From: Defluviitaleaceae bacterium
Lineage (GTDB): Bacteria; Bacillota; Clostridia; Lachnospirales; WQUN01
DNA: 64,000 nucleotides
Assembly: GCA_009780315.1 (NCBI GenBank)
Contig: WRAH01000011.1
Coordinates: 1 to 64,000, forward strand
Direction: 5' to 3'
Shown here: positions 3,471-56,653 of the stretch, piece after piece
How positions within the stretch are numbered: position 1 is the stretch's first letter
Layout: the number at the start of each line of letters is the position of its first letter
Program-made: the position numbers and the translations under genes
Notes under the pieces: generated by a model
Databases searched by the model: none
Seen by the model: the letters and a program-made list of their open reading frames with translations, nothing else
What the model was told of the DNA's origin: nothing

Positions 3471-5837
3471 TTCCTTCATTGCCTTGCGGTGGTAAGACCG
3501 TAATTTTCTAAAAACTTTTCCGTGAATTGTATTGGGCGGGTAGGGGTGTTCTCCCGCAGGAAGCTCCATAAGAATTTCCATACCCTCATTGACATGGGCA
3601 ATGGCATAGATATGAAACTTGCCTTTTTTTACAGCTTCAATGACTTCATCTTTTAGCACTAAATCGCGGACATTGCGGGTAGGGATGATTACACCTTGGG
3701 TTCCTGTGAGTCCGCGCTTTTTACATAGGTCAAAAAAGCCTTCTATTTTGTAAGTTGCACCGCCTATGGGTTGAATTTCACCATGCTGATTCATACTGCC
3801 TGTGATGGCAATATCTTGACGGATGGGTAAACCTGTTAGTGCAGAAATAATGGCAAATAATTCAGTGGAAGACGCGCTGTCACCGTCTACACCGCTGTAG
3901 TTTTGCTCAAAGCAAATACGGCAGCTTAATGAAAGAGGGAAGTCTTGGGCGTAGGTTTGCCCAAGGTATCCGATAAGAATTTGAACGCCTTTGTCGTGAA
4001 TTTCTCCTGACAATTCGGCTTCTTTTTCAATGTTTACGATACCTGCTTTACCCATGTATGCAGTTGCCGTGATACGTGACGGCTTGGCAAAAACATGGTC
4101 GCCTGTATCCAGTACTGCAAGCCCATTGATTTGCCCGACTTTTACACCGTCAGTGGATATCATGACGCTATCTTCTTCAATCATTTCCGATAATTTTTCT
4201 TCATACATATTTAAACGATATTCACGTTTGGTTATTGCTTGGATGACATATTTGGCAGTGACTGTTTCTGCCTTGTCTATTTTTGCCCAGCCTACTGCTT
4301 CCATCAAAATTTCTGATAGATTATTAAAGCGGGTGGTGAGACGGTCTTGGCGTTCGGCCAGACGGGTGGCATACTCAATGACACGCCCTATGGCACTGGA
4401 ATCGAAGGGGAGGGCAGTGGCTTCTTTTGTATACTTATTCACAAACTTTACGATTTCCGTCATGTTTTGGTCATTGAGGTGCATTTCATAATCAAAATCC
4501 ACACGGATTTTAAATAGCTTTTCAAAGTAATCATCATATTGGGTGAGAATGTTGTAGTAATAACCGCCGCCAATGATGATAATTTTTACTTTTAAGGGGA
4601 TTGGCTCAGGCTTGATACCGCTGACAGCAACCCCTGTTGTATACTCACGCAAGGGTTCTGTAATAATTTCTTCTGTAATCAAGCTTCGGCGGAGGGTTTC
4701 CCATGCATGGGGGCTGCCCAAAATATCTTGGGCTTGCAAAATTAAATATCCACCATTGGCTTTATGCAAAAGCCCTGGTTTAATCTTCATAAAATCTGTA
4801 GATAAATTGCCGTATTCATTGTCATACTCCACTTCACCTACAAGATTAGAATAGGTGGGATTATAGTCAATGATAACAGGTGCGCCTTCTAAATGGCTGT
4901 TGTCTGTGATTAAATTGATTTTATACCGTGTTAAATTGTCTTCGGTGCTTTTTTTGCTATACCACGGCATGATGGATTGTATGGCATCTTCCTCTTCAGA
5001 TTCTTCGGCAACGAAATCTGCCATGTTTTCTAAAATGTCTTCTTTTACGGCTTTGAGATAGTGAAGCAATACAGGTTCTTTTGCAAATTCTTCTATAATA
5101 TCGTTCATGTGATAACCTACGACAAAAAGCCCTACAGAATAGTCGAGATTTTCTACTTCTTTTTTTGTAACTTTTTCATGTTCTTTTATTTCGCGCAAAG
5201 CTTCGGCAGCGCGTATTTGGATGGCTTCGGATTTTTTTGTAATGACATCCCGCTGCGCTTGGGTCAGGGATTCAAATTGCTCTTCGGTAATGACTTCGCC
5301 GTCAACAATGGGCATGAAAAATATACCGCTGTTAGAGTTTTTAACTTCAAAGTCCTGCTTGCGTGCCTCTTCTGACATTTGTTTTATAATTTCATCTTGC
5401 TTGTTTTTTAGTACGCTTACAATTTCATTTTTGCGGTTTTCATATTCCTTATCTGAAAAAATGCGGGGAAGCTCTGTACTTAAACGGCTGATAAGCTCGT
5501 TCATTTCTTCTTGCAGACGCTTGCCTGTACCTGCCGGCACAGATAAAAGCTTGGGAATTTTAGGATTTTCAAAATTGTATACATAACATAAATCGGGCGG
5601 GATAGGTTCGGTTACAGCTTCTTCTTTTGCAAATTTTTGTGCAAAAGTGGTTCGCCCTGTACCTGTTGCACCGCAGATGTAAATATGATATCCGCCATCT
5701 TTCATTAAAAGCCCAAATTTAAGGGCTTCTGCCGCACGGTTTTGCCCAATGATACCCATTGGGGTAGAATCTGTTGTATCTATTTTTTGAGGTTTAGCAA
5801 AATATTTTAATGCTTTCCAAGATAATTTATTGGTCAA
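3468..5837 (-). CDS. Lon-like ATP-dependent protease (AAA_32 plus Lon_C type)
   Basis: Single-chain AAA+ protease of about 789 aa, cytosolic, related to the LonB-like group rather than the classical Lon with its large N-domain. A Walker A GATGTGRT lies near residue 60. The C-terminal Lon protease domain carries the Ser nucleophile in DGDSASSTE and the partner Lys in GGATYKIEGF, the Ser-Lys dyad arrangement. An ATG at 5855 is in frame, but GGAGG lies inside that extension. The TTG at 5837-5835 is correctly spaced and overlaps the TGA of rimI as TTGA, so TTG is the preferred start. It is the last gene of the asnB-tsaE-tsaB-rimI block. Its substrates are not evident. Confidence 0.9.
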   Translation of the reverse strand: MTNKLSWKALKYFAKPQKIDTTDSTPMGIIGQNRAAEALKFGLLMKDGGYHIYICGATGTGRTTFAQKFAKEEAVTEPIPPDLCYVYNFENPKIPKLLSVPAGTGKRLQEEMNELISRLSTELPRIFSDKEYENRKNEIVSVLKNKQDEIIKQMSEEARKQDFEVKNSNSGIFFMPIVDGEVITEEQFESLTQAQRDVITKKSEAIQIRAAEALREIKEHEKVTKKEVENLDYSVGLFVVGYHMNDIIEEFAKEPVLLHYLKAVKEDILENMADFVAEESEEEDAIQSIMPWYSKKSTEDNLTRYKINLITDNSHLEGAPVIIDYNPTYSNLVGEVEYDNEYGNLSTDFMKIKPGLLHKANGGYLILQAQDILGSPHAWETLRRSLITEEIITEPLREYTTGVAVSGIKPEPIPLKVKIIIIGGGYYYNILTQYDDYFEKLFKIRVDFDYEMHLNDQNMTEIVKFVNKYTKEATALPFDSSAIGRVIEYATRLAERQDRLTTRFNNLSEILMEAVGWAKIDKAETVTAKYVIQAITKREYRLNMYEEKLSEMIEEDSVMISTDGVKVGQINGLAVLDTGDHVFAKPSRITATAYMGKAGIVNIEKEAELSGEIHDKGVQILIGYLGQTYAQDFPLSLSCRICFEQNYSGVDGDSASSTELFAIISALTGLPIRQDIAITGSMNQHGEIQPIGGATYKIEGFFDLCKKRGLTGTQGVIIPTRNVRDLVLKDEVIEAVKKGKFHIYAIAHVNEGMEILMELPAGEHPYPPNTIHGKVFRKLRSYHRKAMKE

Positions 5838-51895: not shown

Positions 51896-51924
51896 GCCTA
51901 CATGTTACAGACAACTAAATAATA

Positions 51925-52040
51925 CAAACTGAGCAGGCGATAAACCTTTTATGGGGTTTGTGGGGCTGGGCCACAATGTGGCAGTGGATACTATATGGCG
52001 TATCTGCGGGACAGAAATATGTTCCGTAGGTGCGCTTTTT
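51925..52040 (+). ncRNA. NiCo (czcD) riboswitch with terminator
   Basis: The stretch matches the czcD/NiCo riboswitch consensus: AACTGAGCAGGCGATAAACC at the start, GGGGCTGGGCC in the middle, and GTATCTGCGGGACAG at the end. GTATCTGCGGGAC can pair with GTTCCGTAGGTGCGC to form an intrinsic terminator followed by TTTTT (51998-52040). Ligand binding would hold the GGATAC/GTATCT stem and release the gene. Known ligands of the class are Co2+ and Ni2+, with Fe2+ also proposed. The CDF exporter gene follows, as usual for this class. Confidence 0.88.
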
Positions 52041-52109
52041 ATATACCATACGGAAGATGATTGTACTGTGCATAAAAATTCCCCATCATATTAAACGGAG
52101 GTTGTGTTT

Positions 52110-52991
52110 ATGGAAAAGTCAAATGAGCAAATTGCCTTGCGGGTAGCTCGCAACAGTATTATTATCAACGTAGGATTATCAGCATTTAAGTTGTTTGCTG
52201 GAATTTTTGGACAATCAGCAGCAATGGTTTCTGACGCTGTACATTCTATTACTGACCTTATTGGCACTGTAATCGCTATCATTGGTATCAAACTTGCAAA
52301 CAAGAAGCCGGACAAAGAACATCCATACGGACATGAGCGGTTTGAGAGTGTCGCTACCCTTGCGTTAGCCGCACTGATAGCCGTGGTTGGCATGGGCATT
52401 GGTTGGTCTGGTGTGCAAACGATTTTGTCTGGTGAGTATGAAGGAATAGCCATACCTGGTGTACTGGCTTTGGTGGCGGCAGTGGCTTCCATTGGCATAA
52501 AAGAAGCCGTGTTTTGGTATGTGCGCGCCACTGCAAAAAAAATTGATTCCAGCGCACTAATGGCAGACGCATGGCATAGCCGTGCAGACGGGCTATCATC
52601 TATTGGTAGTTTTATAGGCATTTTAGGGGCAAGAATGGGCTTTCCTATTCTTGATTCTGTGGCAGCGATTGTGATATGTGGGTTTATCTTAAAAACGGCT
52701 GTCACGATTACATTGGACGCTATCGGAAAAATGACAGATAGGGCATGTGATGATGAAACGGTTAACGCAATGCGCAAAGTGATTTTATCCCAAGAATCTG
52801 TTGAAGGCATTGACTTGTTAAGAACAAGAATTTTTGGGAATAGAATATTTGTTGATGTGGAAATTGCTGTAAATGCGTCACTTTCCTTTACCGAAGCCCA
52901 TAAAATATCCCATGATGTACATGACGAAATTGAGTCGCAATTTCCAAAGGTGAAACATTGCAAGGTACATGTAAACCCGATAGATAGCTAA
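52110..52991 (+). CDS. Cation diffusion facilitator (CDF) metal exporter
   Basis: 293-aa metal/proton antiporter with six helices. Transport-site motifs are SDAVHSITDLIGT in helix 2 and DAWHSRADGLSSIGS in helix 5; the C-terminal cytoplasmic domain (about 210-293) includes GIDLLRTRIFGNRIFVDVEIAV and ends with KHCKVHVNP. Under a NiCo riboswitch, it is expected to export Co2+, Ni2+ or Fe2+ rather than only Zn2+. ATG 52110 is 8 nt after GGAGG; a GTG six bases earlier is too close. Confidence 0.93.
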   Translation: MEKSNEQIALRVARNSIIINVGLSAFKLFAGIFGQSAAMVSDAVHSITDLIGTVIAIIGIKLANKKPDKEHPYGHERFESVATLALAALIAVVGMGIGWSGVQTILSGEYEGIAIPGVLALVAAVASIGIKEAVFWYVRATAKKIDSSALMADAWHSRADGLSSIGSFIGILGARMGFPILDSVAAIVICGFILKTAVTITLDAIGKMTDRACDDETVNAMRKVILSQESVEGIDLLRTRIFGNRIFVDVEIAVNASLSFTEAHKISHDVHDEIESQFPKVKHCKVHVNPIDS

Positions 52992-55557: not shown

Positions 55558-55596
55558 AAATTCTACAAAAAAAGACTTCCATTTTAACATGTTTTC

Positions 55597-55605
55597 TGCT
55601 ATGAT
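55597..55605 (+). promoter_or_regulatory. Promoter of the structured RNA leader
   Basis: TGCTATGAT is an extended -10 positioned so that transcription begins near 55612, directly before the folded RNA. No strong -35. Confidence 0.45.
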
Positions 55606-55611
55606 GATTTT

Positions 55612-55860
55612 GCGGAAACAATAAAAAAGCCGCGGGACTGATGATGCTTGAGACATCATCAGCTCATGCAAGGATGGGAAATTAGCCATCACACTACACA
55701 AACAGGTTAAACCTGCCACCGCGACGCTTGATTATACCATATTATATAAACATTTCAAATACACAAAAGTATAATCAAGGGGTTGGGAATGATTTTTTGT
55801 TGCGTGTGGTTGTAGTGTGATGGTGCTATCCTTGTGAGCTTCTTGTGTTTCCAGCTTTAA
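55612..55860 (+). ncRNA. Large structured RNA, no known class recognised
   Basis: Several pairings are visible. A hairpin TGATGATG/CATCATCA lies at 55639-55661. A long-range stem has three parts: AGCTCA/TGAGCT (55661-66 with 55835-40), CAAGGAT/ATCCTTG (55669-75 with 55828-34) and the 13-bp CCATCACACTACA/TGTAGTGTGATGG (55686-98 with 55811-23). Inside are a hairpin CAGGTT/AACCTG (55703-15) and CTTGATTATAC/GTATAATCAAG (55727-37 with 55769-79). CGCGG (55631-35) can pair with CCGCG (55719-23) as a pseudoknot. It has its own promoter and leads into a hairpin before a ClpP-like gene. No TPP, SAM, FMN, cobalamin, lysine, tmRNA, SRP or RNase P signature was found. Confidence 0.6.
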
Positions 55861-55882
55861 CAATGATAAAACCCCTCTGAAT

Positions 55883-55936
55883 AAAACTTCCATATACGGA
55901 TAAGAATAAATTAAAATCCGTATATGGGAGTTTTTT
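55883..55936 (+). promoter_or_regulatory. Terminator-like hairpin that masks a ribosome binding site
   Basis: AAAACTTCCATATACGGAT (55883-55901) pairs almost perfectly with ATCCGTATATGGGAGTTTT (55916-55934), followed by TT. The right arm contains GGGAG (55926-55930), the only good ribosome binding site for the gene starting at 55940. The hairpin could end transcription or block translation, and would be a natural expression platform for the RNA fold upstream. Confidence 0.65.
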
Positions 55937-55939
55937 ATT

Positions 55940-56653
55940 ATGAATACATGGACATTAGACCAAGAAGCACCGCCCCAAGAAGATGATGATTGTCAACAAT
56001 CTGCCCCCCAGCCTGAAATCATGCCAAAGCCTCAAACCACTAACCCACGGGGCGTGATTCAATTTCTAACCATCATAGGGCAGATTGAGGGGCATGTACT
56101 TTTGCCCCCAACCAATAAAGCCACAAAATACGAACATGTAATCCCTCAACTGGTGGCATGTGCCGAAAGCTCGGAAGTTGACGGGTTGCTTGTACTTTTA
56201 AACACCATGGGGGGAGATGTAGAAGCAGGGCTTGCCCTTGCGGAGCTGATTGCACACTTGGGAAAACCCACTGTGTCATTAGTCATTGGCGGTGGGCATT
56301 CCATTGGTGTTCCATTGGCTGTTTCCGCCCAATATTCATTTATTGCCCCCTCTGCAACCATGACCATCCACCCTGTAAGAATGAATGGTACAGTCGTTGG
56401 CGCACCTCAAACGTACGAATACTTTAACAAAACACAGGATAGGGTAGAGGACTTTGTTGTAAACCACTCAAGCGTAACCCGCAAACGATTGGCAAAACTG
56501 ATGATGGACACCCGAACCATGGCACAAGATGTAGGCACAATCCTTATTGGCGAGGAAGCCGTAAACGAAGGCATTATAGACGCTGTAGGCGGTTTACACT
56601 GTGCAATGGAAAAACTTTATGAAATGATAGGTAAAGAAACCTCTGATAAATGA
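55940..56653 (+). CDS. ClpP/TepA-like serine protease
   Basis: 237-aa protein of the ClpP superfamily, TepA/YmfB-like. An acidic, Gln/Pro-rich N-terminus (residues 1-35) precedes the fold. GLLVLLNTMGGDVEAGLALAELI is the oxyanion region, the nucleophile Ser is in IGGGHSIGVPLAVS (about 121), and the His in ATMTIHPVRMNG (about 144). TepA-type members are found in Gram-positive bacteria and have been tied to protein export and spore development; the role here is inferred. There is no signal peptide. Its start lies right after a masking hairpin, so expression is likely conditional. Confidence 0.87.
   Translation: MNTWTLDQEAPPQEDDDCQQSAPQPEIMPKPQTTNPRGVIQFLTIIGQIEGHVLLPPTNKATKYEHVIPQLVACAESSEVDGLLVLLNTMGGDVEAGLALAELIAHLGKPTVSLVIGGGHSIGVPLAVSAQYSFIAPSATMTIHPVRMNGTVVGAPQTYEYFNKTQDRVEDFVVNHSSVTRKRLAKLMMDTRTMAQDVGTILIGEEAVNEGIIDAVGGLHCAMEKLYEMIGKETSDK

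Follow-up and report, generated by a model that had tools for sequence, protein, structure and literature searches.

We analysed a 64,000-nucleotide stretch of DNA from a Defluviitaleaceae bacterium (assembly GCA_009780315.1, contig WRAH01000011.1, positions 1 to 64,000), referred to here as the window. The study centres on positions 55597-55936, which lie ahead of a ClpP/TepA-like protease gene (55940-56653, plus strand; PF00574, E=3.3e-19). The original prediction, made from this DNA alone, described the segment as a large folded RNA leader on the plus strand, and the components it listed are present in the sequence: a long-range stem, local hairpins, an extended -10 element TGCTATGAT (55597-55605) and a 19-bp, terminator-like hairpin (55884-55935) with GGGAG in its 3' arm, placed directly before the ATG. 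The fold is as strong as proposed, with a minimum free energy (MFE) of -113.8 kcal/mol on the plus strand against a mean of -72.9 kcal/mol for 100 shuffled sequences (z -7.75). The reverse complement of the same segment folds stronger still against its shuffles (z -9.45). The folded element is a dispersed repeat rather than a single-copy leader, as BLAST against its own genome returned 12 matches, and the aligned copies share a core of about 110 nt with a sigma70-like promoter on the window minus strand. This core, which we call RNA-A, is the subject of the following analysis.

The window copy of RNA-A spans 55621-55731 (minus strand) and was detected by the covariance models R1 (E=5.0e-21) and R3 (E=5.8e-19); the three models built for the element, R1, R2 and R3, were derived from 12, 36 and 38 sequences, respectively. 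Read on the minus strand, the order is promoter, P1, P2, P3, P4, P1' and U-run, and P1-P4 form a four-way junction. The promoter consists of a -35 box TTGAAA (55753-55758) and, after a 16-nt spacing, a -10 box TATAAT (55731-55736), both read from the sequence. The 5' strand of P1 (55719-55725) pairs with the 3' strand (55629-55635), followed by a T-run (55623-55628), and the junction carries the hairpins P2 (55703-55715), P3 (55664-55702) and P4 (55637-55663). The terminal loops of P3 and P4 are hypervariable in the RNA family. This copy is intact and folds to the four-way junction at -44.8 kcal/mol (z -6.0). The CGCGG/CCGCG pair previously taken for a possible plus-strand pseudoknot does exist, but it is the closing helix P1 of the minus-strand RNA. 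Of 79 loci, 59 have a T-run after the RNA-A core.

RNA-A is a conserved RNA structure encoded on the minus strand. In 12 copies, P1 shows standard pairs on this strand in 84/84 cells, 17 of which are G.U and would thus read as A.C mismatches from the plus strand. Scoring a simple consensus structure by dynamic programming gave 17.1 for the minus strand against 7.8 for the plus strand, and the minus-strand reading of alignment A4 contained 146 G.U against 34 A.C among 1296 cells. In the case of locus L203, the RNA-A strand folds at -52.4 and the other strand at -25.8. Compensatory changes on both sides were observed in 28/36 pairs of A4 and in 31/36 pairs of A5, which adds other Clostridia; both are MAFFT alignments not fitted to structure, although the structures themselves were chosen on A4 and A5. 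The covariation score of A5 was 0.518 against 0.263 for shuffled alignments, and 0/500 shuffles reached 0.518. The covariance-model check for compensatory changes suggested with the original prediction found strong covariation across homologues, and the proposed independent RNA was borne out as a structured RNA, but one encoded on the opposite strand. RNAalifold applied to the plus-strand alignment A1 recovered the P2 hairpin only, and the structure appeared on the minus strand.

Both the RNA-A promoter and a second, leader promoter are present as predicted sequence signals. The RNA-A promoter scored a mean of 10.1 against 3.85 for shuffled sequences in the taxonomic family of the window genome (n=74), with 99% above the shuffled 95th percentile, and the signal was found in 100% of 41 loci outside this family. 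The second promoter lies on the opposite strand, ends a few bases past the RNA-A 3' end and typically reads TTGCAC-N18-TAGAAT. Within the family its mean score was 7.75, against 5.14 for shuffled sequences and 3.8-3.9 for control windows; outside the family, 88% of 40 leader promoters exceeded the shuffled 95th percentile. In most loci the leader order is opposite-strand promoter, antisense of RNA-A, spacer, hairpin B and gene. Hairpin B qualifies as a terminator (free energy, dG, <=-10 with a U-run) in 44/69 family loci, and outside the family dG<=-14 was found in 40/41 loci, against 6/41 shuffled sequences and 8/40 control regions. The gene on the hairpin-B side is leader-sense in 41/59 loci. 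Family counts of promoters, terminators, leader pairing and gene orientation omit L033 and L101 (degenerate or interrupted) and L046 (the same locus as L139), and the outside-family promoter, terminator and pairing counts and the loop comparison omit L231, L232, L233, L229, L245, L246 and L249.

Hairpin B shares the sequence of P3, and its arms have two possible partners, each other and the P3 antisense of the leader. The 26-bp long-range stem of the original prediction is hairpin B paired with this P3 antisense. On the plus strand, the MFE fold joins leader segment a (55662-55675), antisense to one P3 strand, to b' and segment a' (55685-55698), antisense to the other P3 strand, to b; hairpin B itself spans 55811-55839 (b 55811-55826, b' 55827-55839). 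The anti-P3:B duplex had a mean of -37.8 kcal/mol against -21.5 when shuffled, and the two leader states lie within 0-9 kcal/mol of each other across 47 leaders, 12 of which show at least 20 a/b pairs in the MFE structure. In the window genome, a and a' fit their own hairpin B best in 15/15 tested loci of 25 copies (-39.0 vs -30.5, p 6e-5); the copies of this genome have diverged. Outside the family the own locus fits better in 29/41 (p 0.0096).

The loops are the most striking feature of RNA-A. Over 33 close pairs of copies, which are not independent and include one locus fetched twice (L046/L139), the P3 loop differed by 41% and the P4 loop by 34%, against 18% for the P2 loop, 3.3% for the scaffold and 6.2% for the adjacent spacer. 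In plasmid antisense systems, loop differences set specificity. This pattern fits P3 and P4 loops that act as addresses and is compatible with cis-antisense transcription attenuation. Since both RNAs are read from the same DNA, any loop change stays matched in RNA-A and leader, so the loops of different copies within a cell may drift, or be driven, apart until mutual repression ceases, which would explain the hypervariability. The idea that the loops serve as guides for flanking DNA was rejected, as no match beyond that to the flanks of other loci was found in eight tests (n=78, p 0.19-0.97 apart from P4 sense at 0.044 and 0.059).

Taken as a whole, the RNA-A loci are probably new and widespread cis-antisense transcription-attenuation modules, chromosomal and multicopy, that are associated with accessory genes. 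The plus-strand fold at 55597-55936 is accordingly best read as a leader, as originally proposed, but one regulated by RNA-A, the conserved RNA being that of the minus strand. In the proposed mechanism, the leader mRNA would start just beyond the RNA-A 3' end, cross the full RNA-A antisense, the spacer and hairpin B, and enter the gene. Without RNA-A, long-range a:b' and a':b pairing would pre-empt the terminator and the gene would be read. RNA-A, presumably made constitutively from the other strand, would contact the leader through its exposed P3 and P4 loops and sequester a and a', whereupon b:b' could form and transcription would stop. We infer each of these steps, namely RNA-A expression, the direction of the effect, loop kissing and termination.

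The known cases of antisense attenuation are mostly plasmid systems, in which it controls copy number; RNA-A forms a large family on chromosomes that Rfam does not list. The elements of pT181/pIP501-type systems have counterparts among the RNA-A loci: a predicted antisense RNA with its own promoter signal, an opposite-strand leader promoter, an intrinsic terminator and a pre-emptor. In pT181 RNAI/repC of staphylococcal plasmids, as described in PMC5703833, the RNA is counter-transcribed and the 5' arm of the terminator stem-loop (IV) alternatively pairs with an upstream pre-emptor. RNA-A is likewise antisense to a leader whose terminator arm has an alternative upstream partner; it differs in being chromosomal, with up to ~24 copies per genome, a four-way junction, genes other than rep and no Rfam match to a counter-transcribed RNA. 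The 136-nt antisense RNAIII of pIP501 attenuates the repR leader (PMC4981023), and two loop pairs are named in the title of a study cited there. RNA-A resembles it in size, in leader attenuation layout and in its two loops; however, no copR or repR was found near RNA-A in the loci examined, and RNA-A has a closed four-way-junction scaffold and is multicopy. As for the pSK41 RNAI, PMC5703833 describes an RNA antisense to the leader, some 100 nt ahead of the start codon, that acts by sequestering the ribosome-binding site (RBS), not by termination, which makes it a possible model for RNA-A copies without a U-run, although sequence, structure and gene differ.

Several observations weigh against attenuation as described, the window locus itself among them. 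Its leader promoter (TTCCAT, 17 nt, TATGAT; 55577-55605, plus strand), conserved in position among relatives, is weak with a score of 5.9, and its hairpin B has no U-run and represents a degenerate attenuator that does not provide an intrinsic terminator. The mode of the window copy is less certain for this reason. The AbrB-type loci of the same genome also have a hairpin B with no U-run; in these and in the window copy, control may act on translation, following the pSK41 pattern, or may have decayed. The ClpP-like gene may be under control by termination or by RBS masking, or may not be regulated at all. Beyond the window, only 33% of 79 family leader promoters exceeded the shuffled 95th percentile, and the promoter scan found none in some g10 and g16 loci (e.g. 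L126, L130, L131, L056, L070). The gene on the hairpin-B side is in the opposite orientation in 14/59 loci and absent in 4/59. For most leaders the MFE structure is the terminator or some other fold than the long-range one, with fewer than 20 cross pairs in 35/47. In the window genome, the own-B comparison passed over the remaining copies, the window copy included, on account of motif rules or contig ends, and in other genomes of the family own B was better in 11/22 loci (p 0.84), giving no support, probably because the stems are nearly identical there.

The strongest competitor is a family of trans-acting small RNAs (sRNAs), with a common scaffold and two variable seed loops directed at distant mRNA targets, and with the leader overlap being secondary. 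Many paralogues, a conserved scaffold and variable loops would suit it, and multicopy sRNA families exist, such as FopS of Bacteroides gut bacteria with its 14 paralogous members (PMC11697453). RNA-A is also multicopy in gut bacteria; FopS is trans-acting, shows little loop diversification and belongs to another phylum. We regard this explanation as unlikely, because the opposite-strand promoter and terminator hairpin B are conserved at fixed places, hairpin B shares the P3 sequence and genes are biased towards leader sense (41 vs 14). Two hypervariable loops within a fixed scaffold also recall the IS110 bridge RNA, likewise structured and equipped with two loops that can be programmed (PMC11208160, PMC11208158), and RNA-A could accordingly be the guide of an RNA-guided mobile element, with the P3 and P4 loops recognising target and donor DNA and the copies spread by recombination. 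The copies are indeed dispersed, partly near-identical and often located at contig ends. Unlike the bridge RNA, however, RNA-A has no recurrent adjoining recombinase gene and carries its own internal promoter, and its loops do not match their flanks beyond those of other loci, which leaves this possibility very improbable.

A ligand-sensing, riboswitch-like leader on the plus strand, as suggested originally, would account for the strength of the plus-strand fold, for its two alternative pairings and for its terminator. It is on the minus strand, however, that the conserved pairs hold, whereas A.C disrupts them on the other, and the conserved scaffold is preceded by a promoter of its own. No conserved plus-strand aptamer was found, the conserved pairing being that of the minus strand, and nothing indicates a ligand-binding riboswitch; we consider this suggestion slightly less probable still. 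Least credible is a selfish palindromic repeat of the miniature inverted-repeat transposable element or repetitive extragenic palindrome type (MITE/REP-like), devoid of RNA function and with its structure a by-product of inverted repeats. The dispersed copies and inverted-repeat layout agree with such an origin, whereas the compensatory changes, the strand-specific G.U bias and the fixed positions of both promoters over many Bacillota families speak against it. Cis-antisense attenuation remains the preferred explanation.

The genes downstream of the leaders are diverse, and the link to TepA/ClpP that had been drawn at the window locus is incidental, as elsewhere the element stands ahead of genes of different kinds (AbrB-fold, SymE, DUF6809-like, YpsA and further ones). 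No replication initiator was seen among the identified leader genes. Proteins with an AbrB/MazE fold, judged by sequence, were observed at 7 loci of the window genome; four of these were run against Pfam and three had a MazE or MraZ match (E<=0.001, near cutoffs). Genes for this fold also occur at several loci in other genera, among them L134 (PF04014, 30.0 bits; others by eye), and a YpsA-SLOG gene was found at G010 (PF06908) and, by eye, at L037. Among 48 outside-family loci, a DUF6809-like cluster comprised 14 proteins, of which L209 scored 25.1 bits, below the cutoff of 27, and L197 had no Pfam match; a SymE-like cluster comprised 4 proteins, with L201 above the cutoff (PF08845, E=2.9e-12). 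In E. coli, the type I toxin-antitoxin pair SymE/SymR has a cis-antisense RNA opposite an AbrB-fold SymE gene (PMC1891008); the SymR promoter is inside the symE ORF (open reading frame) and SymR acts on translation or mRNA. Some RNA-A loci carry SymE (L201) or AbrB/MazE-fold genes; in contrast to SymR, RNA-A, promoter included, is encoded in the leader ahead of the start codon and not inside the ORF, a terminator stands between RNA-A and gene, and partner genes are mixed.

The RNA family spans distant Bacillota and is attached to toxin-like (SymE), AbrB-fold, YpsA-SLOG and DUF6809-like genes, and its loci offer a starting point for work on uncharacterised genes such as DUF6809. A bolder view, to which we give somewhat less than even credence, is that two dozen orthogonal chromosomal antisense attenuators, with their own loop-address pairs diversifying far faster than the rest, ride on mobile accessory genes across Bacillota and provide an incompatibility-like self/non-self addressing, by which non-plasmid elements would silence themselves and not each other. 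Near-identical copies with different loops constitute a natural library of orthogonal RNA-RNA addresses, making the evolution of kissing-loop specificity and crosstalk within one cell directly testable.

In the window genome, R2 identified 24 copies at E<=4.1e-8 and one more at 0.0045. A second copy in the window, of a recent subtype, lies at the contig end (155-263, plus strand; R2 E=4.1e-8, R3 E=1.2e-15). Such copies are frequent at contig ends, and further ones have probably been lost in assembly as a result. In an order sample of 392 genomes, RNA-A was present in 23/38 family members and 0/354 others. With R3 it was found in 20/391 genomes of a class sample (Clostridia), the weakest three being doubtful, and in 6/398 genomes of a phylum sample (Bacillota), both counts including the window genome; the weakest class and phylum matches (L231, L232 and L233, E 3e-4 to 7e-4) show no four-way-junction fold. 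A sequence-pattern scan of genome contigs returned 72 stretches, of which 43, in Defluviitaleaceae metagenome-assembled genomes, were true members by R2; the 44th R2 match, L145 from Omnitrophota (E=0.001), was judged to be chance. The Defluviitaleaceae isolates that carry RNA-A copies are, we presume, from termite guts.

As had been stated at the outset, the element belongs to no recognised class: no RNA-A copy reached the gathering threshold of any Rfam 15 family, riboswitches included, and the weak sub-threshold matches, mostly of microRNA, small nucleolar RNA and plastid models on hairpins, were judged to be chance. Literature searches for the element or close analogues yielded no description. 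A phage or plasmid origin was rejected, since, as searched, the window element and L203 had no match in phages or plasmids and L206 and L201 had none in plasmids; the single viral-contig pattern match was not an RNA-A member by R3 at E<=1.

A few individual loci add further observations. In two different genomes, L129 and L142 hold RNA-A in orthologous positions next to a gene that looks, by eye, like EF-G/TypA, which indicates that some RNA-A loci are old and stable. No recombinase gene recurred beside RNA-A in the loci examined. At L101 (WQRX01000024.1, ~3974-4077), RNA-A homology ends inside P3 and an ORF of 522 aa resembling a serine recombinase (label by eye) adjoins it, possibly reflecting an insertion that used the RNA-A hairpin as its site. 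A skipping-rope RNA (RF02924) was observed at L206 (3519-3602, plus strand), ~900 nt from the RNA-A copy, and CRISPR-DR2 repeats at L242 (1827-1988, minus strand), in a multi-copy genome, lie a few hundred bases from one. Elsewhere in the window, a NiCo riboswitch (RF02683, 69.2 bits; 51919-52016, plus strand) is located ahead of a cation-efflux gene (52104-52991).
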